Below are positions 3,914-50,019 of a stretch of 64,000 bases of DNA, piece by piece. The notes under the pieces are model-generated. The model ran no database searches and was not told where the DNA came from. It saw only the letters and a list, made by a program, of their open reading frames with translations. Source of the DNA: Streptococcus oralis (GTDB lineage Bacteria; Bacillota; Bacilli; Lactobacillales; Streptococcaceae); assembly GCF_024399415.1 (NCBI RefSeq), contig NZ_CP029257.1, positions 953,501 to 1,017,500 of the forward strand, given 5' to 3'. The translations under genes were made by a program, and so were the position numbers. Within the stretch, counting starts at the first letter, position 1, and each line of letters begins with the position of its first letter.

Positions 3914-5815
3914 ATGATTATTTTACAAGCTAATAAAATTGAACGTTCTTTTGCAGGAGAGGTTCTTTTTGATAATATCAACCTGCAAGTTGATGAACGA
4001 GACCGGATTGCCCTCGTTGGGAAAAATGGGGCAGGTAAGTCCACTCTTTTGAAGATTTTGGTTGGGGAAGAGGAGCCGACCAGTGGAGAAATCAATAAGA
4101 AAAAAGATGTTTCTCTGTCTTACCTAGCCCAAGATAGCCGTTTTGAGTCTGAAAATACCATTTATGATGAAATGCTTCACGTCTTTGATGACTTGCGTCG
4201 GACTGAGAAGCAACTTCGTCAGATGGAACTGGAGATGGGTGAAAAGTCTGGTGAAGATCTGGATAAACTGATGGCGGATTATGATCGTTTATCAGAGAAC
4301 TTCCGTCAGGCTGGTGGCTTTACCTACGAAGCTGATATCCGTGCTATCTTAAATGGATTCAAGTTTGACGAGTCTATGTGGCAGACGAAAATTGCCGAGC
4401 TTTCAGGTGGTCAAAATACTCGTCTAGCACTGGCTAAAATGCTCCTTGAAAAGCCCAATCTCTTGGTCTTGGACGAACCTACCAACCACTTGGATATTGA
4501 AACCATAGCCTGGCTAGAGAATTACTTGGTGAACTATAGCGGTGCCCTCATTATTGTCAGCCACGACCGTTACTTCTTGGATAAAGTTGCGACGATTACG
4601 CTAGATTTGACCAAGCATTCTTTGGATCGCTATGTGGGAAATTATTCTTGTTTTGTTGAGTTAAAGGAGCAAAAGCTAGTTACTGAGGCAAAAAACTATG
4701 AAAAGCAGCAGAAGGAAATCGCTGCTCTGGAAGACTTTGTCAATCGCAATCTAGTCCGAGCTTCAACGACAAAACGTGCTCAATCTCGCCGCAAGCAACT
4801 GGAAAAAATGGAGCGTTTGGACAAGCCTGAAGCTGGCAAGAAATCAGCCAATATGACCTTCCAGTCTGAAAAAACGTCGGGAAATGTCGTTTTGACTGTT
4901 GAAAATGCGGCTATTGGCTATGATGGGGAAATATTGTCTGAGCCAATCAATCTGGACCTTCGTAAAATGAATGCTGTTGCCATCGTTGGACCAAACGGCA
5001 TCGGGAAATCAACCTTTATCAAGTCTATTGTGGACCAGATCCCTTTTATCAAGGGAGAGAAGCGTTTTGGTGCCAATGTTGAGGTTGGTTACTATGACCA
5101 GACTCAAAGCAAGCTAACACCAAGCAATAGTGTCCTAGATGAACTTTGGAATGATTTTAAACTAACACCAGAGGTTGAAATCCGTAATCGACTTGGAGCC
5201 TTCCTTTTCTCAGGAGATGATGTTAAGAAATCAGTTGGCATGCTGTCAGGTGGCGAAAAAGCTCGTTTGTTACTTGCCAAACTTTCTATGGAAAACAACA
5301 ACTTTTTAATTCTTGACGAGCCGACCAACCACTTGGATATTGATAGCAAGGAAGTGCTAGAAAATGCCTTGATTGACTTTGATGGGACCCTTCTTTTCGT
5401 CAGTCACGACCGTTACTTTATCAATCGTGTAGCCACTCATGTTTTGGAATTGTCCGAAAATGGTTCAACCCTCTACCTTGGAGATTATGACTACTATGTT
5501 GAAAAGAAAGCAGAAGTAGAAGCGATTCAGACAGCGGAAGCTTCAACTAGCAATCAAGAAAAAGAAGAAAGTCCAGTTAATGATTATCAGGCTCAGAAAG
5601 AAAGTCAGAAAGAAGCCCGCAAACTCATGCGACAAATCGAAAGTTTAGAATCTGAAATCGAAGAACTAGAAAGTAAAAGCCAAGCCATCTCTGAACAAAT
5701 GTTGGAAACCAATGACGCTGAAAAACTCATGGAGATGCAGGCTGAACTGGAAAAAATCAGCCATCGTCAGGAAGAAGCCATGCTTGAGTGGGAAGAATTA
5801 TCAGAGCAGGTGTAA
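3914..5815 (+). CDS. ydiF: ABC-F family ATPase (YdiF type)
   Basis: A 633-residue protein with two ATP-binding cassettes and no membrane segments, hence ABC-F rather than a transporter. Cassette 1 has Walker A GKNGAGKST, signature LSGGQ and Walker B LLVLDEPTNHLD; cassette 2 has GPNGIGKST, LSGGEKARL and FLILDEPTNHLD. The interdomain linker (about residues 240-320) is the basic helical arm that enters the ribosomal E site in this family, and the C-terminal 100 residues are a charged coiled coil, as in B. subtilis YdiF. It probably acts on stalled ribosomes in translation. It is followed with only two bases of spacing by the Rgg gene, suggesting co-transcription. It is not an obvious antibiotic-resistance subtype. 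Confidence 0.9.
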   Translation: MIILQANKIERSFAGEVLFDNINLQVDERDRIALVGKNGAGKSTLLKILVGEEEPTSGEINKKKDVSLSYLAQDSRFESENTIYDEMLHVFDDLRRTEKQLRQMELEMGEKSGEDLDKLMADYDRLSENFRQAGGFTYEADIRAILNGFKFDESMWQTKIAELSGGQNTRLALAKMLLEKPNLLVLDEPTNHLDIETIAWLENYLVNYSGALIIVSHDRYFLDKVATITLDLTKHSLDRYVGNYSCFVELKEQKLVTEAKNYEKQQKEIAALEDFVNRNLVRASTTKRAQSRRKQLEKMERLDKPEAGKKSANMTFQSEKTSGNVVLTVENAAIGYDGEILSEPINLDLRKMNAVAIVGPNGIGKSTFIKSIVDQIPFIKGEKRFGANVEVGYYDQTQSKLTPSNSVLDELWNDFKLTPEVEIRNRLGAFLFSGDDVKKSVGMLSGGEKARLLLAKLSMENNNFLILDEPTNHLDIDSKEVLENALIDFDGTLLFVSHDRYFINRVATHVLELSENGSTLYLGDYDYYVEKKAEVEAIQTAEASTSNQEKEESPVNDYQAQKESQKEARKLMRQIESLESEIEELESKSQAISEQMLETNDAEKLMEMQAELEKISHRQEEAMLEWEELSEQV

Positions 5816-5817
5816 AG

Positions 5818-6681
5818 ATGGAACATCTTGGAAAAGTATTTCGTGAATTTCGAACCAGTGGGAACTACTCTTTAAAGGAAGCAGCGGGCGATTCTTGCTC
5901 GACCTCTCAGTTATCTCGCTTTGAGCTTGGTGAGTCTGATTTAGCAGTTTCCCGTTTCTTTGAGATTTTGGATAATATTCATGTGACTATTGAAAATTTC
6001 ATGGACAAGGCTAGGGATTTTCAAAATCATGAACATGTTGCCTTGATGGCACAGATTATTCCGCTTTACTACTCAAATGATATTGCAGGTTTTCAAAAGC
6101 TTCAAAGAGAACAACTTGAAAAGGCTAAGAGTTCGACCAATCCCCTCTATTTTAAGCTGAATTGGATTCTGCTACAAGGACTGATTTGTCAAAGAGATGC
6201 TTATTACACGATGAGGCAGAGTGATTTGGAAAAGGTAGCAGATTATCTTTTTCAAACAGAAGAATGGACTATGTATGAGTTGATTCTTTTCGGAAATCTC
6301 TATACTTTCTACAATGTGGACTATGTGGCTCGAATTGGCAGAGAAGTGATGGAGAGGGAAGACTACTACAAGGAAATTGGTCGGCATCGAAAACTTGTTT
6401 TGATTTTAGCTCTTAACTGTTACCAGCATTGTTTGGAAAATCGATCCTTTGCGGATGCGGACTATTTTGAGGGCTATGTGGAGAAGTTAATTGGAAATGG
6501 TATCAAGCTTTATGAGCGCAATATCTTCCATTATCTCAAAGGTTTCGCCCTCTACCAGAGAGACTTGAAAGAAGAGGGTTGTAGTCAGATGCGGGAGGCC
6601 ATGCATATTTTTGCTGTGCTTGGACTTCCAGAGCAAGTGGCTTACTATCAGGAACATTATGAAAAATTTGTAAATCCTTAA
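5818..6681 (+). CDS. Rgg/GadR/MutR-family transcriptional regulator
   Basis: A 287-residue regulator with an N-terminal helix-turn-helix (residues about 5-60, CSTSQLSRFELGESDLAV is the recognition region) and an all-helical repeat domain typical of Rgg proteins, which bind short peptide pheromones. I start at ATG 5818, two bases after the upstream stop, with AGGTG as ribosome site; a longer frame from 5788 overlaps the ABC-F gene. The next gene is an MFS exporter with a perfect inverted repeat between them, so the exporter is the likely target. I found no short hydrophobic peptide gene on either side; whether it responds to a peptide is open. Confidence 0.88.
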   Translation: MEHLGKVFREFRTSGNYSLKEAAGDSCSTSQLSRFELGESDLAVSRFFEILDNIHVTIENFMDKARDFQNHEHVALMAQIIPLYYSNDIAGFQKLQREQLEKAKSSTNPLYFKLNWILLQGLICQRDAYYTMRQSDLEKVADYLFQTEEWTMYELILFGNLYTFYNVDYVARIGREVMEREDYYKEIGRHRKLVLILALNCYQHCLENRSFADADYFEGYVEKLIGNGIKLYERNIFHYLKGFALYQRDLKEEGCSQMREAMHIFAVLGLPEQVAYYQEHYEKFVNP

Positions 6682-7940: not shown

Positions 7941-8014
7941 TTTCTCTTTTTTAGAAAATATTTCATTACGAATCATTTTTCAGTCCTTCTCTATTGTGAG
8001 GAGGGCTTGCTTTG

Positions 8015-9988
<1,974 letters not shown>

Positions 9989-44103: not shown

Positions 44104-45174
44104 TTATAAACTGTCCAAAGCATTCTTTTGTTCATCATTGACAATATGGGTATAGAGGTCAGTGACTTGTGTACTGGCGTGTCCTAGCTGATGGCTGACC
44201 AAAACCTGTGATTTAGTTGCATCATAGAGCCTAGTTGCCAGGGTATGCCGTAGTTTGTGGGGAGTTACACGGACTTTGAAGTCCTCAGAGTACTTAGCAA
44301 CCATTTTCTCGACGCTGGAAGCATCGATACGATTGGGAACACCACGATATAAGGTCAGAAAGAGCGCTGTATCTGTTTTTTCCGTCTTATAGCGTTGATT
44401 TCGAATGGCGAGATAATTTTCAAGGTAAGACTTGGCAAAGGCTGCGACATTGACAGAATCACGTTTGCCCCCTTTTCGAGTGACATCAATGACCATCATT
44501 TTGAGATTAAGGTCTCTTAGATCCAGATTAACAGCTTCAGATAGGCGGACACCAGACGCCAAGAGAAGGGCAATAATGGCTAAATCACGTTCTTTATTTT
44601 TATTGAATGACGAGAGAGCACGATTTGAGAGTTGTTGTGGGTACTCTTGGTCAATATAAGTCAGAAAACCTTCTGTTTCATCACCTAGAAAGAGTTTTTG
44701 CTTGATGTTTTCAGCTCTGGCAGCAAGTGTTTCTTTCTTTTTCTTGGTTGAAACTTTCTTCATTACATTACGATAGAAATAAGGCTCCCCCTGGTCGTTT
44801 TCGACTTCCTCGGTTAGATACTTGTAAAGACTAGATAGTGCTGACAAAGTGCGATTGATTGTTGTCTGAGAGACACCTTGTTTAGTTGTATTAGCATTCA
44901 GCAAAGGTCGTTCACGAAGATATAGAATAAAGGACTCCATGTCTTTTTTAGACATATTTTCCAAGACCGATAAAGGAATATCGACCATTTTATCCGCATT
45001 TGAGATTCCAGACTCCAAAACCCAGCTGAAAAATCGATCGTATTCCTTGAGGTATTCGTATAAGGTTGTAAAACTGTAGGGCACAGCAAGCTTAGATTGG
45101 TAGTATTCCAGAACATACCAGGGCATGATTTGTTTTAGTTTGTCGATTCGCTCTAGTAAAATCTCACGTTTCAT
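44104..45174 (-). CDS. xerS: tyrosine recombinase XerS
   Basis: The single Xer recombinase of streptococci, resolving chromosome dimers at difSL during division, together with FtsK. The 356-residue protein has an N-terminal DNA-binding core domain (about residues 25-125) and a catalytic domain with all expected residues: Arg210 (ASGVRLSEA), Lys234, His306 and Arg309 (PHKLRH), His332 (LGHAS) and nucleophile Tyr341 (LYTHI). ATG 45174 follows GGAGAAAATAC. Its recombination site lies 50-85 bases upstream. The streptococcal one-recombinase system is well established. Confidence 0.95.
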
Positions 45175-45190
45175 GTATTTTCTCCATAAT

Positions 45191-45232
45191 TAAGTCTACT
45201 AGTAGTATAGCATAGACTTACATATTTTTCAA
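45191..45232 (-). promoter_or_regulatory. xerS promoter overlapping difSL, with flanking inverted repeat
   Basis: On the minus strand TTGAAA (45232-45227) lies inside the right arm of difSL; a 17-base spacer leads to the extended -10 TGcTATACT (hexamer 45209-45204). An inverted repeat TAAGTCTA / TAGACTTA (45191-45198, 45213-45220) encloses the -10. Recombinase or another protein bound here could block transcription. Confidence 0.6.
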
Positions 45233-45257
45233 GAAAATTATAGTTTTTCGGAAAGAT
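45225..45257 (-). other. difSL chromosome dimer resolution site
   Basis: Read on the minus strand: left arm ATCTTTCCGAAAAA, centre CTATAA, right arm TTTTCTTGAAAAA. The two arms are inexact inverted repeats of the XerS target, and the sequence and its place directly upstream of xerS match the difSL sites known from streptococci and lactococci. It marks the replication terminus; gene orientation changes here. Confidence 0.85.
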
Positions 45258-45314: not shown

Positions 45315-45605
45315 TTAAATTTCATCATACTTGAGCAACATATTCGGAATCTTTTCTTCAAGACTCTTGCGAACTTTACCTTGAATTGCAGTGTCCATCT
45401 GGCTGTTTATGCTTGTAATGGTTGATTTGGTTTCTGTAGCAATTTTCTTTGCTGCTTTATTAAAGTTATCTTTTAATTTATTTTTTGCTGTTATCGCTAA
45501 CTTTGCTTCCGTAATGATTCGGTTTCTTTCCATCATTCGATACATTTGTTTCAGTGCATATTGGTATTCTTCATCCGTGTAGTATTCATTCATTGGTGCT
45601 TGCAT
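45315..45605 (-). CDS. small helical partner protein of the TslA-like effector (TlaA2 position)
   Basis: A 96-residue, almost entirely helical protein (YTDEEYQYALKQMYRMMERN, then a basic middle and AIQGKVRKSLEEKIPNMLL). It is the size of WXG100-like/Lap targeting partners but lacks a WXG motif. It is the last gene of the effector operon, starting inside the preceding gene at ATG 45605 behind AAGGAG. By position it corresponds to TlaA2, one of two helical partners that type VII effector TslA needs for secretion in Staphylococcus aureus. No terminator separates it from difSL and xerS. Confidence 0.6.
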   Translation of the reverse strand: MQAPMNEYYTDEEYQYALKQMYRMMERNRIITEAKLAITAKNKLKDNFNKAAKKIATETKSTITSINSQMDTAIQGKVRKSLEEKIPNMLLKYDEI

Positions 45606-45978
45606 AATCTCTCCTTAATCTGTGAAATTCTTCGTCTAAATCATTTCTTTTTTTACGAAACTCGTTATCGTATTTTTCTCTCTCATCTTCGAGTTTAACC
45701 CTATGATCTCTGTATACTTGATTCGAAAAGTGTCTCAAATTTTCTATTTCTGTAAAGTAGTCTCTAACATCATCAACACTTGTCTCAAATTTTCTCAAAA
45801 TATGAGACATTTTATCAACTTCTTCGGAAATTAGTTTTTCTAAGTTTGCATTTCGTTCGTCTAGATCAAGGGCTTTCTTATCAAGTTCTTTCTTTTGTCG
45901 ATAATATCGTTCTTCTAGAGTATACAGTTCTCTCTCTTTTTCTCTAATTTCCTCCCATTTTACATCTTTTCTTTCCAT
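45586..45978 (-). CDS. coiled-coil partner protein of the TslA-like effector (TlaA1 position, DUF3958-like)
   Basis: A 130-residue, highly charged coiled-coil protein with long heptad stretches (REKERELYTLEERYYRQKKE, NANLEKLISEEVDKMSHILR). Similar DUF3958-type proteins accompany LXG and TslA effectors and form a helical bundle with the effector's targeting region. Its start (ATG 45978 behind AAGGAG) overlaps the end of tslA by 19 bases and its end overlaps the next gene by 20, indicating strict co-translation. Confidence 0.65.
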   Translation of the reverse strand: MERKDVKWEEIREKERELYTLEERYYRQKKELDKKALDLDERNANLEKLISEEVDKMSHILRKFETSVDDVRDYFTEIENLRHFSNQVYRDHRVKLEDEREKYDNEFRKKRNDLDEEFHRLRRDYASTNE

Positions 45979-47213
45979 TGTCGAAACTCCTTGGCTAATT
46001 GCTTATCTGTTGCTACTGTTTTTTCGATAACTTCCTGTAATTGTTTATCCATATTTTCAAATGCTTTGGCGGAAGCATTCATCTTAGTGGCTGTTTGATT
46101 TGTCTCTGACTGAAACGTATCGATAAACTGTGCTTGAGTGATGCCTTGACTAGCAAAAAGGGCCTCAACCTCATAGGGAGCTAATGCTGTGTAGCTCGTA
46201 AAGTCGATTTTTGACCAAATTTCTTGTAATTCTTGATTGGCTTTTTTGGCTAAGGCGCTCACTTCATCAGCTCCAGTTCTTGCTGCCGTAGCCATAGATG
46301 ATGATAAGATAGAACCTTGAGCTGCATCTAGGTATATTTCCTCAGAGCTACTAATGCCACCTGATGACCATTTTGACTTCAAGTCCTTGTAATGAGCCAT
46401 TCCTCGGAGACTGTTGGCATACGCTCGATAAACGCCACTGATTAAGGGTTTCCCACCTTTACCATCTACAAGTTGACCAGTTACAGGATCAAACTCCCAG
46501 TCACCAATTTTATGACTCGAACCATCAAGCCAGTGAATCGTGTTAGGCATAGAGTCAGTTATATCAGAATACCATTCAGGGTGATTGAAATCATTCCAAC
46601 GTACTACGTCATCATGTTTTCTACGGTAATCAATAAACATAGCTGGATTATTTTCAATAAATGCTTTTTCTTCCAGTGTGAGCGCACCGTATTTAAACCA
46701 AGCATTAAATGTAGTTGTAGGTATGTGGTATTTAGCTCCTATTTTCAGCATATAAGACCCTTGGGAATAGCCAGATAGTTGACTAACTTCATATCTGGGA
46801 TCATCCATAATTTCTTTAACAAATTGATCTGCAACCTTATATTGTGGTGATAAATACATTTTTTTTGCAATTATGGCACTATTGACATCACGTGAAACAA
46901 ACATACTTTTATTCACAGGACTATCAGGGTCCGTTCCTGCAGCAATCACAGCTACATTTTTATAATCTGGTTTGCCATTCACAATAGGTGCAACTGCCAG
47001 TCCATCAAAACCTGTTTCAATGTCAGACTTAGTGGCAACGACACGGAATTCTTGACCATCGGAGGTGGTTATAGTGTTGGTTTCGTTTTTATTATTTGGA
47101 TTATCTGTCACAAATTTCTTTTTATTGCGTTCTGAAAATTCTTTATTAACACTATAGACCGCAAAATCTTGGTTTAAATTATTCAATTGATTATCAGTAT
47201 AATTAAATACCAT
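45960..47213 (-). CDS. TslA-like type VII secretion effector: N-terminal lipase, C-terminal helical targeting domain
   Basis: A 417-residue protein with no signal peptide. Residues about 50-265 form an alpha/beta-hydrolase lipase-like domain: AVIAAGTDPDS, then the nucleophile elbow GYSQG at 148-152 (Ser150). Candidate triad partners are Asp201/Asp202 and His234. Residues about 265-417 are helical (ending NMDKQLQEVIEKTVATDKQL) and resemble an LXG-type targeting region, but at the C-terminus. That reversed order is the signature of TslA, a phospholipase toxin secreted by the type VII system of S. aureus. Two helical partner genes follow and immunity-like genes precede it. Its ATG shares one base with the stop of imm5 (TAATG). 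The catalytic assignment is inference. Confidence 0.75.
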   Translation of the reverse strand: MVFNYTDNQLNNLNQDFAVYSVNKEFSERNKKKFVTDNPNNKNETNTITTSDGQEFRVVATKSDIETGFDGLAVAPIVNGKPDYKNVAVIAAGTDPDSPVNKSMFVSRDVNSAIIAKKMYLSPQYKVADQFVKEIMDDPRYEVSQLSGYSQGSYMLKIGAKYHIPTTTFNAWFKYGALTLEEKAFIENNPAMFIDYRRKHDDVVRWNDFNHPEWYSDITDSMPNTIHWLDGSSHKIGDWEFDPVTGQLVDGKGGKPLISGVYRAYANSLRGMAHYKDLKSKWSSGGISSSEEIYLDAAQGSILSSSMATAARTGADEVSALAKKANQELQEIWSKIDFTSYTALAPYEVEALFASQGITQAQFIDTFQSETNQTATKMNASAKAFENMDKQLQEVIEKTVATDKQLAKEFRQWKEKM

Positions 47214-47656
47214 TATTGCTCTCCTGTTTCACCATTTGAATATCGTACTAATATTGTAGAATCTGTTTTACCAATGTGTTTTTGAAGTATAGACCATTGT
47301 TGATCAATTTCTTCATTAGTATTTCCTTTCATAAGACCATCATGGTTTTCTTTATAGGTTAATCTGTGATTAATTCCATAAGTAATAGTTTGACTATCAT
47401 TGAACTGTACTGAAATATCACAAGACCACGAACCCGGTTTGTCATTATAGTAAGGATCCATAATCTTAATCTCCTTAATCCCTTGGTAGGAATTCTTTAA
47501 AGCATTAACCAGACTTACTTCATATTCTCTATTTCGACGCTCTTCTTGAGACTTCCCTAACATACTAAACACAAAAACACCTCCTGTTGTGATGGCTACG
47601 AGTAACAAAACGATTAGTAGTCTTATATATCTTTTTTTATTGCTGGAAATATTCAT
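47213..47656 (-). CDS. putative membrane-anchored immunity protein, imm5 (partner of the intact effector)
   Basis: A 147-residue protein: short basic cytoplasmic start MNISSNKKRYIR, one membrane helix (about residues 12-31), then an external domain. The proximal half (KSQEERRNREYEVSLVNALK to PGSWSCD) is shared by all five paralogues; the distal half is its own. No lipobox cysteine is present, so anchoring is by the helix. Outward location fits protection from a secreted phospholipase, as the lipoprotein TilA protects against TslA. Directly coupled to tslA by TAATG, making it the most likely cognate immunity protein. Function is inferred from position and topology. Confidence 0.65.
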   Translation of the reverse strand: MNISSNKKRYIRLLIVLLLVAITTGGVFVFSMLGKSQEERRNREYEVSLVNALKNSYQGIKEIKIMDPYYNDKPGSWSCDISVQFNDSQTITYGINHRLTYKENHDGLMKGNTNEEIDQQWSILQKHIGKTDSTILVRYSNGETGEQ

Positions 47657-47684
47657 TTAAGCTTTTCTCCTTTTCTCTATTCTA

Positions 47685-47966
47685 CTATAATTTAAAGATA
47701 AATAACAGTAGAATAGAGAAAATCAAGTCAATTGTCACAGACACTGCATCAAATCCCGATATTCGGTGAGACTTAGTCGCAACAACACGGGATTCTTGAT
47801 CATCTGAGGTGGTTATAGTGTTAGTTTCGTTTTTAGGATCAATATTAGACTTTTCTACAACCTGTTTTGTCTTTTTTCTACTTGAAAACTCTTCGTTCAC
47901 ACTATAAACAGCATAATCTTGGTTTAAATTATTCAAGTGTTCATCAGTATATTGGAAATTCATCAT
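47685..47966 (-). pseudogene. truncated tslA-like gene (5-prime 72 codons), fragment F4
   Basis: A 93-residue frame beginning MMNFQYTDEHLNNLNQDYAV, aligning with TslA residues 1-72 (KNETNTITTSDDQESRVVAT is shared almost exactly), then switching at GFDAV to an unrelated hydrophobic tail. The lipase core and targeting domain are gone. The N-terminus is of a different allele than the intact effector, so it is the remnant of a second toxin. It starts at the same overlapping junction after imm4. Confidence 0.75.
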
Positions 47967-48388
47967 AGTTCTCCTTGCTCACTATCAGAATAAGTAATTT
48001 TCACTGACTTTAAAGTTTGCCCTTTATGAGTTTCTAAATACTGCCAATCTTCGTTTGTTTCTTGACGTCCACCATAATTGGTTTTATAGTTTAAATGATG
48101 ATTAATTCCATATGAAAGAGTTCTTTCATCTTTAAATTTAATTTCGACATCACAAGACCACGAACCAGGAGGACTTGTGTACTCTGGATTGGAAATTTTA
48201 ATCTCCTCAATCCCTTCATAGGAATTTTTTAAAGCATTAACTAGACTTACTTCATACTCTCTATTTCGACGCTCTTCTTGAGATTTTCCTAACATACTAA
48301 ATATAAAAACACCTCCTAATGTGATAGTTGCGAGTAGAAAAACTATGAATAATGGTTTATAGCTTTTTCTTAATCTATCTTTACTCAT
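47963..48388 (-). CDS. putative immunity protein paralogue, imm4
   Basis: A 141-residue membrane-anchored paralogue with a different N-terminus from imm1, imm3 and imm5 (MSKDRLRKSYKPLFIVFLLA) and a distal half nearly identical to imm2 (KFKDERTLSYGINHHLNYKT). The TM segment (GGVFIFSMLGKSQEE) instead resembles that of its neighbour imm5. I choose ATG 48388, 7-8 bases behind AGAGG, over 48394. Its original toxin partner is the broken fragment F4. Confidence 0.65.
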   Translation of the reverse strand: MSKDRLRKSYKPLFIVFLLATITLGGVFIFSMLGKSQEERRNREYEVSLVNALKNSYEGIEEIKISNPEYTSPPGSWSCDVEIKFKDERTLSYGINHHLNYKTNYGGRQETNEDWQYLETHKGQTLKSVKITYSDSEQGEL

Positions 48389-48390
48389 TA

Positions 48391-48489
48391 TCATTTCCTC
48401 TTTTTCTCAGCATATTCATCATTGACACTGTATACATTTTTCCCTTGATCTAATTCATTAAGTTGTTTTTCTGTATAATTAAATACCAT
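48391..48489 (-). pseudogene. tslA 5-prime fragment F3 (32 codons)
   Basis: Frame MVFNYTEKQLNELDQGKNVY... matching the first ~30 residues of TslA, then stop TGA 48393-48391. It begins with the same TAATG junction after imm3 as the intact effector, and its end overlaps the imm4 start region, so it may now act only as a translational bridge. Confidence 0.7.
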
Positions 48490-48911
48490 TACTGTTCCCC
48501 TCTTTCTTTGTTAGAGTATGTAACCGTAACTGTATTAGTTGTTATTCCTTTTCTTCGGTTAAGAAAATCTCGCTGTCCATAAGTCATACGACCATTGTAA
48601 GTTTCTATCTCATCTAAGTTATGTGGAATTCCATAGAATATTTTTTCCCCATCTTCAAACAAAATATCAACCTTACAAGACCAGTCACCAGGAGGGTTCG
48701 TATATGTTGGATTGGAAATTTTGATTTCTTCTATCCCTTCATATGAATTCTTTAAGGCATTAACCAGACTTACTTCATATTCTCTATTTCGACGCTCTTC
48801 TTGAGACTTCCCTAACAACCTAAACATAAAAATAGCTCCTGCTGTGATGGCTACGAGTAACAAAACGATTAGTAGTCTTATATATCTTTTTTTATTGCTG
48901 GAAATATTCAT
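48489..48911 (-). CDS. putative immunity protein paralogue, imm3
   Basis: A 140-residue membrane-anchored paralogue with the MNISSNKKRYIR start of imm1 and imm5, one TM helix, the shared KSQEERRNREYEVSL block and a PGDWSC variant of the conserved cysteine motif. The distal half (ILFEDGEKIFYGIPHNLDEI) is unlike the other four, suggesting a different toxin specificity. It is followed by toxin fragment F3. Confidence 0.65.
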   Translation of the reverse strand: MNISSNKKRYIRLLIVLLLVAITAGAIFMFRLLGKSQEERRNREYEVSLVNALKNSYEGIEEIKISNPTYTNPPGDWSCKVDILFEDGEKIFYGIPHNLDEIETYNGRMTYGQRDFLNRRKGITTNTVTVTYSNKERGEQ

Positions 48912-49011
48912 TTAAGCTTTTCTCCTTTTTCTCCTTGAAGACTTTTCGTTCACACTATAAACAGCATAATCTTGGTTTAAATTATTCATCAGTATAATGG
49001 AAATTCATCAT
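48912..49011 (-). pseudogene. tslA 5-prime fragment F2 (9 codons, then frameshift)
   Basis: Starts MMNFHYTDE then TAA, caused by an 8-base deletion relative to fragment F4 (CACTTGAA missing after the ninth codon). The sequence beyond still matches the tslA start in a shifted frame (Tyr-Ser-Val-Asn region) up to the imm3 ribosome site. Start codon overlaps the imm2 stop. Confidence 0.7.
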
Positions 49012-49433
49012 AGTTCTCCTTGCTCGCTATCAGAATAAGTAATTCTCACTGACTTTAAAGTTTTCCCTCTATGAGTTTCTAAATACTGCCAATCTTCGTT
49101 TGTTTCTTGACGGCCACCATAATTGGTTTTATAGTTTAAATGATGATTAATTCCATATGAAAGAGTTCTTTCATCTTTAAATTTAATTTCTACATCACAA
49201 GACCACGAACCAGGAGGGCTTGTGTATTCTGGATTAGAAATTTTAATCTCTTCAATCCCTTCATAGGAATTCTTTAAGGCATTCATCAAACTAACTTCAT
49301 ACTCTCTATTCCGATGTTCTTCTTGCGATTTTCCTAACAACCTAAACATAAAAATAGCTCCTAATGTGATGAATACGAATAGTAAAACTATGAATAATGG
49401 TTTATAGCTTTTTCTTAATCTGTTTTCACTCAT
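49008..49433 (-). CDS. putative immunity protein paralogue, imm2
   Basis: A 141-residue membrane-anchored paralogue starting MSENRLRKSYKPLFIVLLF. Its distal half is nearly identical to imm4, with only conservative changes (for example HRGKTLKSVRITYS against HKGQTLKSVKITYS). Its TM segment GAIFMFRLLGKSQEE is the same as in neighbouring imm3, a mosaic pattern. The start at 49433 is inside the end of fragment F1; an upstream ATG at 49481 belongs to another reading of F1 and is not used. Confidence 0.65.
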   Translation of the reverse strand: MSENRLRKSYKPLFIVLLFVFITLGAIFMFRLLGKSQEEHRNREYEVSLMNALKNSYEGIEEIKISNPEYTSPPGSWSCDVEIKFKDERTLSYGINHHLNYKTNYGGRQETNEDWQYLETHRGKTLKSVRITYSDSEQGEL

Positions 49434-49533
49434 TGTTATTTCCATTCCTCTCAGCATATTCATCATTGACACTGTATACATTTTTCCCTTGATCTAATTC
49501 ATTAAGTTGTTTATCAGTATAACTAAATGCCAT
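49426..49533 (-). pseudogene. tslA 5-prime fragment F1 (35 codons)
   Basis: Frame MAFSYTDKQLNELDQGKNVY... matching F3 and the N-terminus of the intact effector, ending at TGA 49428-49426 inside the imm2 start region. Same TAATG junction with the preceding immunity gene. Confidence 0.7.
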
Positions 49534-49967
49534 TATTGCTCTCCTTCGTCATTATTAGAATAAGTTACCCTAATTTTCGAAGCAGTTTTACCTTTGTTTT
49601 CATTTAAAAATTGTCGATCTTTTACTCTATTTTCCCATTCCAATGAAGTATCTGTTATTTCTTCAGTGTCTAGAGAATATCCAACACTATACTTAATTTT
49701 TTCTTCATGTTTAAATTTGATTTCTACATCACAAGACCACGAACCAGGAGGGCTTGTGTATTCTGGATTAGAAATTTCGATTTCTTCTATCCCTTGATAA
49801 GAATTCTTCAAGGCATATACCAAACTAACTTCATATTCTCTATTTCGACGTTCTTCTTGGGATTTCTCTAACATACTAAACATAAAAATAGCTCCTACTG
49901 TGATGGCTACGAGTAACAAAATGATTAGTAGTCTTATATATCTTTTTTTATTGCTGGAAATATTCAT
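49533..49967 (-). CDS. putative immunity protein paralogue, imm1 (first gene of the array)
   Basis: A 144-residue membrane-anchored paralogue with the MNISSNKKRYIR start, TM helix, shared KSQEERRNREYEVSL block and PGSWSCDVEIKFK, then a private distal half (SLDTEEITDTSLEWENR...). It is nearest the only visible promoter of the array, so the whole series down to the partner genes at 45315 could be one transcript. It is followed by toxin fragment F1. Confidence 0.65.
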   Translation of the reverse strand: MNISSNKKRYIRLLIILLLVAITVGAIFMFSMLEKSQEERRNREYEVSLVYALKNSYQGIEEIEISNPEYTSPPGSWSCDVEIKFKHEEKIKYSVGYSLDTEEITDTSLEWENRVKDRQFLNENKGKTASKIRVTYSNNDEGEQ

Positions 49968-49989
49968 TTAAACTTTTCTCCTTTTTCTT

Positions 49990-50019
49990 ATTATACAATA
50001 TTCTAATCATTCTTTACAA
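49990..50019 (-). promoter_or_regulatory. promoter of the immunity/effector array
   Basis: On the minus strand TTGTAA (50019-50014), 18-base spacer, TATAAT (49995-49990), 22 bases before the imm1 start. No other convincing promoter is seen inside the array. Confidence 0.6.

Follow-up and report, generated by a model that had tools for sequence, protein, structure and literature searches.

A predicted reverse type VII secretion effector of Streptococcus oralis with a transmembrane immunity family and upstream orphan cassettes

We analysed a stretch of 64,000 nucleotides from Streptococcus oralis (the window; positions 953501–1017500 of the one-contig 2.0-Mb genome GCF_024399415.1, NZ_CP029257.1), which is likely to encode a Tsl-like antibacterial effector of the reverse type for a type VIIb secretion system (T7SSb), together with its immunity repertoire and with upstream cassettes that would be open to recombinational exchange of specificity. 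TslA of Staphylococcus aureus is an experimentally characterised reverse type VII (T7) effector, whose description anticipated further examples and raised the question of recognition (PMC10730906). The window locus lies on the minus strand and is transcribed in the order immunity gene (147 residues, 47213..47656), effector gene (417 residues, 45960..47213), 130-residue partner gene (45586..45978) and 96-residue partner gene (45315..45605), with neighbouring ends overlapping by 1, 19 and 20 bases respectively. An earlier annotation made from the letters alone (the sequence-only reading) had placed these four open reading frames (ORFs) and a GYSQG motif at Ser150 correctly. Its proposal of a TslA-like reverse effector is supported by profile homology to Tsl-type proteins, by an invariant Ser/Asp/His set and by a T7SSb in the genome. 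Its four genes were right, but it overlooked a cassette array that extends upstream to 49967, two further reverse effectors in the genome and the position of the locus beside a dif site and xerS. The four-gene set is not a chance arrangement, because it is conserved in relatives. Among named records, a search that finds close relatives only, and may omit the records nearest to the window genome, returned 10 loci: seven from S. oralis/oral taxon 058, with 80–92% identity over the best-matching segment, and three from S. sanguinis, with 65–68%.

The ORF, the alignment and the profile match together point to a predicted serine lipase/phospholipase with a C-terminal targeting region; both the alpha/beta hydrolase fold and the activity are predictions. 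Residues S150, D201 and H234 are invariant in all 24 aligned full-length relatives, down to 17% identity, and belong to the nine invariant columns of that alignment. Only intact full-length ORFs were aligned (broken and N-containing rows and a 748-residue row, L037, were excluded), and the rows include the genome's own other effectors, L002:7652-9340 at the T7SS locus and L006:658-1935. The catalytic triad of TslA, S164-D224-H251 (PMC10730906), has the same Ser-Asp-His order. The position of the GXL motif, which Tsl proteins have in their C-terminal domain, is occupied by G285-G286-I287 in the window protein, with glycine in 17 of the 24 rows and a hydrophobic residue in all 24.

Profile–profile comparison (hhalign) of seven streptococcal sequences with five Tsl-type sequences from staphylococcus-like genomes, rather than with S. 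aureus TslA itself, gave a probability of 98.5 (E 1.6e-15, 340 columns). The match spans both halves of the protein, reaches the C-terminus and pairs S150 with the serine of GHSKG; it begins at residue 58, so residues 1–57 lie outside the alignment. The staphylococcus-like loci were reached by a profile search of 398 Bacilli genomes, and in the two of the five that were tested (L068 and L070) a DUF576 (TilA-family) gene lies directly upstream of the Tsl-type gene (E 2.3e-60 and 9.5e-64). That search matched 108 of the 398 genomes, but many matches cover the lipase half alone and we therefore make no claim about distribution from this figure. The last ∼ 45 residues of the effector gave a marginal profile match to S. 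aureus EsxA (E 0.41–0.5); this and the match to Tsl-type proteins suggest the helical C-terminal region. The two small partners align among streptococcal loci, the 96-residue protein with nine others, and the 130-residue protein (Tla1-like, Lap-like) has coiled-coil-like matches. The sequence-only reading had taken them as the Tla counterparts. They match Tla1 and Tla2 mainly in position and size.

The sequence-only reading had observed that no secretion machinery is encoded in the window. Searches across the genome for essC-, esxA- and yukD-type genes revealed a T7SSb ∼ 705 kb from the locus. It comprises a single WXG100 match (genome position 284209), a 1473-residue EssC (290215–294048) with YukC/EssB and YukD/EsaB adjoining it, and a second, truncated EssC (303482). 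ORFs of 1009 and 154 residues occupy the EsaA and EssA positions and gave no Pfam match up to E 0.01. A reverse-type cassette is situated directly upstream of esxA in this T7SS locus (L002:6710-9957; genome 280709–283956), with genes for small proteins of 129 and 140 residues, a 562-residue GHSLG lipase-like protein that exceeds the Pfam Cutinase and Mbeg1-like cut-offs, and genes for 104 and 102 residues; a 16-residue match to a toxin start lies upstream of it (E 1e-4). The third reverse-type cassette (L006:53-2647; genome 515824–518418) has genes for 181 residues, a 425-residue GHSLG effector, 138 residues and 104 residues.

Effector and machinery also occur together across the genus. Among 197 Streptococcus genomes, 58 matched the effector, many of them over nothing but its C-terminal part, and 66 passed the curated cut-off for EssC; 50 had both, 8 the effector only, 16 EssC only and 123 neither (Fisher p 3e-24). 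Adding at least six genomes whose EssC fragments rise above the FtsK-like background, as judged by eye, gives 54, 4, 18 and 121. A WXG100 match is present in three of the eight effector genomes that lack EssC over the cut-off. Two genomes had a near-full-length effector match without EssC: in G098 the cassette is intact, and in G120 the effector is interrupted by an in-frame stop.

Two further observations concern the T7SS loci. In the window genome the truncated second EssC (779 residues; L003, genome 294000–313999) is followed by a near-duplicate block with a gene for a 122-residue YwqH-like protein, a 718/721-residue protein and repeated genes for 327–342 and 117 residues, an arrangement that recalls the effectors downstream of a truncated EssC in S. 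suis (PMC12558993). Elsewhere in Streptococcus, open frames of 828–861 residues with a similar N-terminal lipase-like stretch (G125:C1:1891029, G007:C1:1158334 and G096:C44:45733) each have EssC within ∼ 1.5 kb.

Some results weigh against assigning the locus to the Tsl kind. Matches to lipase profiles from the PDB are marginal with a broad profile (best E 0.0021, including a feruloyl esterase) and absent with a narrow one. The 130-residue partner reaches a profile probability of only 22% against the staphylococcus-like Tla1 pair, and the 96-residue partner has no detectable homology to the Tla2 pair (probability 0.4). The S. oralis genome G098 has an intact cassette and array, with no EssC over the cut-off and no WXG100 match; in this strain the machinery is lost or strain-variable. 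Its locus (L075) is accompanied by three additional reverse-effector matches in the genome. One could instead see an ordinary extracellular esterase/lipase operon with a nutritional or envelope role, as Pfam and NCBIfam scans of the window proteins found nothing above cut-off, the 417-residue protein included, and the broad profile marginally matches other lipases besides the feruloyl esterase. We regard such an operon as most improbable: the first 60 residues of the effector have no hydrophobic, signal peptide-like stretch, the adjoining immunity array is polymorphic, homology to Tsl-type proteins extends over both halves, the effector co-occurs with EssC, and the T7SS locus of this genome has a cassette of the same order immediately upstream of esxA. 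It is likewise distinctly improbable that a reverse T7 effector encoded here acts mainly on the host or on host lipids rather than on bacteria. The T7SS of group B Streptococcus is linked to cytotoxicity and virulence (PMC8675928), but in the present toxin the tip covaries with a predicted membrane protein encoded next to it, and spare alleles are retained, which is also seen in systems of bacterial competition; S. aureus TslA had no statistically significant role in skin abscesses, though there was a trend to reduced virulence (PMC10941976).

The active-cassette immunity protein (147 residues) has one transmembrane (TM) segment and no lipobox. The same holds in the S. oralis clade, where a hydrophobic segment occurs within residues 1–70 of all 38 immunity proteins and a lipobox-like motif within residues 1–50 of none. 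None of the window's five immunity proteins matches PF04507 (DUF576), and a 22-sequence immunity profile does not match it either (hhalign probability 0.7). These data support a distinct family of predicted single-TM proteins, without the lipobox of the TilA-type DUF576 lipoproteins, and agree with the sequence-only reading, which had suspected a separate TM-anchored family. Upstream of another streptococcal reverse effector, two small genes (L030:362-754 and 965-1366) look lipoprotein-like by eye, with GGC after a hydrophobic stretch; both lipobox and TM immunity types therefore seem to occur in Streptococcus.

The second main feature of the locus is its upstream array. The window has five immunity genes, all on the minus strand, and after each of the four outer ones comes a remnant of the effector gene's 5′ end. 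Moving outwards from the active cassette, a 93-residue N-terminal effector fragment of a different allele (47685..47966) follows a 143-residue immunity gene (47963..48394); a 32-residue remnant (48391..48489) follows a 140-residue immunity gene (48489..48911), whose C-terminal part is almost the same as in the immunity protein that accompanies the active effector of another strain (L076:5579-6001); an eroded remnant with an internal stop (48888..48989) follows an immunity gene of 157 residues as called (49008..49481), a near-duplicate of 47963–48394; and a 35-residue remnant (49426..49533) follows a 144-residue immunity gene (49533..49967). Across window positions 46001–50000, which include the array, the G+C (guanine plus cytosine) fraction falls to 0.336, compared with ∼ 0.40 for most of the window. 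The same arrangement recurs in other S. oralis loci and in other reverse-effector families, and in 38 of the 40 S. oralis-clade cassettes no more than 30 bases separate the end of an immunity ORF from the start codon of the toxin.

The polarity of the remnants was controlled by searching the first and the last 150 effector residues against both flanks of 36 distinct loci, each counted once (L025 and L088 are one locus, as are L093 and L023; L090, L092 and L094 are included). N-terminal matches lie upstream in 25/36 and downstream in 1/35 (the S. sanguinis locus L080). C-terminal matches lie upstream in 2/36 and downstream in 0/35; the two, in L090 and L092, belong to entire second copies of the effector, broken in L090 and intact in L092. 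Three of the upstream matches are weak (L002, L034 and L043; E 1e-5 to 1e-4), and that of L031, at the margin of its flank, begins at residue 92. The flanks range from ∼ 0.3 to 6 kb, and the loci do not count as independent, since several of them are closely related. L092 has two full-length effectors in tandem (5310-6584 and 7971-9248, reverse-complement coordinates), separated by an immunity gene and a 5′ fragment; partner genes follow the second effector but not the first. The staphylococcus-like locus L068 carries two orphan fragments of 163 and 162 residues, each of which follows a gene that aligns with the DUF576 lipoprotein beside the active toxin; they share 46–49% identity with the active toxin before a switch point and 93–94% over the next 108 residues.

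Allele relationships were analysed in the S. oralis clade (12 of 23 loci), which provides 40 cassettes, 10 active and 30 orphan. The variable segment is complete in 25 of them and 23 of these 25 have an adjacent immunity ORF; L078, with a run of N inside the gene, was excluded from linkage and identity among active cassettes and from immunity nucleotide identity. At 75% identity the 23 cassettes form nine classes, four of which are active in one strain and orphan in another. Immunity identity follows that of the toxin variable segment (r 0.648, p 0.0001; 23 cassettes), with a median of 89% (52–98; 22 pairs) within a toxin class vs 57% between classes (231 pairs). For the nine active cassettes the correlation resides in toxin residues 1–45 (47079..47213, minus strand; r 0.71, p 0.0008) and not in residues 96–255 (r −0.17) or 256–417 (r −0.29). 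Residues 1–45 covary with the immunity allele and not with the remaining protein (r 0.16, −0.01 and 0.05). The variation is distributed correspondingly: nucleotide identity of the immunity gene is 0.85–0.88 over residues 1–60 and 0.51–0.58 over residues 61–147, that of the toxin gene ∼ 0.70 over residues 1–60 and 0.80–0.95 beyond, and amino acid identity of the effector is 0.68 for residues 1–30, 0.55 for residues 31–60 and 0.74–1.00 per 30 residues thereafter. Residues 46–95 (46929..47078, minus strand) are conserved, are retained in the longer orphan fragments and form a putative crossover anchor. From these patterns of identity and linkage the anchors and the exchanged unit are therefore visible, and we infer the exchange itself.

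We propose the following model. Through its C-terminal part the effector would bind the 130- and 96-residue partners, and it would leave the cell by way of the EssC machine, whose genes lie elsewhere in the genome. Once outside, its N-terminal serine hydrolase would attack the membrane lipids of neighbouring streptococci, and the producer would be protected by the single-TM immunity protein with its C-terminal domain facing outward. Each cassette of the array, all of them upstream of the active toxin, pairs an immunity gene with a toxin allele's 5′ end. The unit of exchange, ∼ 400 bases, would comprise the variable C-terminal part of the immunity protein and toxin residues 1–45, bounded by the conserved immunity residues 1–60 and, in the toxin, by the conserved stretch that starts at residue 46. 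Within these bounding stretches homologous recombination could then replace the active specificity segment, and displaced segments would stay upstream as an immunity reserve. The orphans lie upstream because the toxin half is N-terminal, the mirror image of the orphan modules of contact-dependent growth inhibition (CDI) and Rhs systems.

The more general proposal, which we see as evenly poised between right and wrong, is that reverse T7 effectors undergo mirror-image cassette switching: a two-gene unit of ∼ 400 bases is exchanged between conserved anchors, the recognised immunity protein changes and the catalytic residues stay constant, displaced units serving as an upstream reserve. It would be common to several streptococcal families and to at least one staphylococcus-like locus. 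Short toxin-tip peptides may accompany the orphan immunity proteins, because the toxin start codon is kept coupled to the immunity stop.

The array could also be debris of tandem immunity-gene duplication that ended inside the overlapping toxin gene, with selection on the extra immunity genes alone and no switching, an explanation that we rate as rather unlikely. It would account for the near-duplicate units within the window's array and for the state of the orphans, 15 of 30 of which have no complete variable segment, many being eroded to 30–35 residues. In S. aureus til genes vary in number, and the available text of PMC10730906, which describes polymorphic N-termini and til1 recombination, does not mention toxin fragments. 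Against it, the remnants with a complete variable segment are alleles other than the active toxin. All 12 orphans that could be compared with their own strain's active allele share 42–64% identity with it, whereas 10 of 15 orphan alleles match the active allele of another strain at 89–98% and never that of their own (of the ten strains behind these matching orphans, two have no intact active copy). Furthermore, linkage of immunity with toxin residues 1–45 and not with the toxin body is expected from exchange and not from duplication alone. The finding that the best other allele beats the strain's own in 11/12 comparisons is not relied on, as it is biased by comparing nine alleles with one.

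Other observations count against cassette switching. The absence of an orphan that matches its own strain's active allele is not significant when compared with random dealing (expected 0.89, P 0.35). In one orphan (L085 9086) the toxin allele and the immunity protein belong to different classes. Toxin residues 91–120 and 211–240 also vary (0.74 and 0.76), so residues 1–45 are not the sole variable part, and the toxin tip and the immunity gene, besides being linked, adjoin each other in the DNA. No crossover event was caught in the loci compared. An upstream remnant is absent in 11/36 loci, one S. sanguinis locus (L080) has its immunity gene and remnant downstream, and the other four staphylococcus-like loci (L069, L070, L071 and L073, one with only 614 bases upstream) have no remnants.

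The locus adjoins the machinery for chromosome dimer resolution. A difSL-type site with both published arms (45225..45254, minus strand) lies 60 bases beyond the last partner gene, followed by a xerS-type tyrosine recombinase of 356 residues (44104..45174, minus strand), whose size and adjacency to difSL agree with those published (PMC5357621). The site and xerS adjoin the cassette in 11/11 S. oralis-clade loci that have the effector or its 3′ part; in the compared stretches of 12 other loci, including those of S. sanguinis, neither was found. The GC skew shifts from positive to near zero or negative at the locus, as expected at a replication terminus. We also considered the array as an element integrated by XerS and rejected this, since no second dif-like site was found (one site in the window at ≤ 3 mismatches).

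As far as can be judged from sequence, the system would work like TslA; what our analysis suggests as new is that a reverse effector of Streptococcus has a separate TM immunity family and orphan cassettes in mirror-image arrangement. Among the matches listed in the open-licence literature, no title or abstract start deals with streptococcal reverse effectors or with upstream orphan cassettes. Many Streptococcus genomes appear to carry reverse effectors, with an immunity family other than that of TslA, and the natural allele series point to residues 1–45 as the segment recognised by immunity. The polarity of the orphans offers a checkable rule, namely that cassettes accumulate on the side of the toxin domain, and the difSL/xerS neighbourhood places a variable weapon locus at the chromosome terminus of S. 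oralis. Spare immunity genes joined to the front ends of other toxin versions suggest how such weapons may change specificity.

The S. aureus TslA–TlaA1–TlaA2–TilA system shares with the window locus the order of immunity protein, effector and two small proteins, a polymorphic N-terminus and multiple immunity copies (PMC10730906). It differs in that its immunity protein is a DUF576 lipoprotein, in contrast to the ∼ 147-residue TM protein here. The elbow is GHSKG in Tsl-type proteins and GYSQG here, the partners are not detectably homologous to the staphylococcus-like pairs, and orphan toxin 5′ fragments are present here. An enterococcal four-gene reverse cassette has been mentioned (PMC10730906). 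Our strongest match outside Streptococcus (L072, E 5.5e-90), in a genome of the enterococcal order, likewise has a 140-residue TM-type upstream gene, two small genes and upstream toxin remnants; we do not equate it with the published enterococcal locus. Predicted reverse lipases at T7SSe and T7SSg loci of Neobacillus and Paenibacillus, also outside Staphylococcus, are similar by description but belong to other T7SS types, and arrays are not mentioned in the available text (PMC11217815). In S. aureus, a tspA fragment in the tsaI array, together with recombining esaG genes, provides a T7 toxin fragment amid immunity paralogues; there the homology lies in the 3′ end of tspA, and the study reports no recombination of the fragment with the toxin (PMC9484751).

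The closest parallels to the array are the orphan cdiA-CT/cdiI and Rhs modules (PMC3150448) and the type VI secretion system immunity arrays of Vibrio cholerae (PMC5361080), in which displaced toxin fragments accompany immunity arrays, alleles active in one strain are orphan elsewhere, and recombination at conserved flanks has been proposed. In CDI and Rhs systems the toxin part is C-terminal and the orphans lie downstream, whereas here it is N-terminal and they lie upstream. Most orphan cdiA-CT genes are described as having no initiation signals (PMC3150448), while the immunity ORFs here end near a toxin start codon, and the part tied to immunity is a whole toxic domain there as opposed to a segment of ∼ 45 residues here. 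The window locus nevertheless has the features of an orphan-cassette system: displaced toxin fragments and immunity genes stand beside the active pair, and their alleles are shared with the active loci of other strains.

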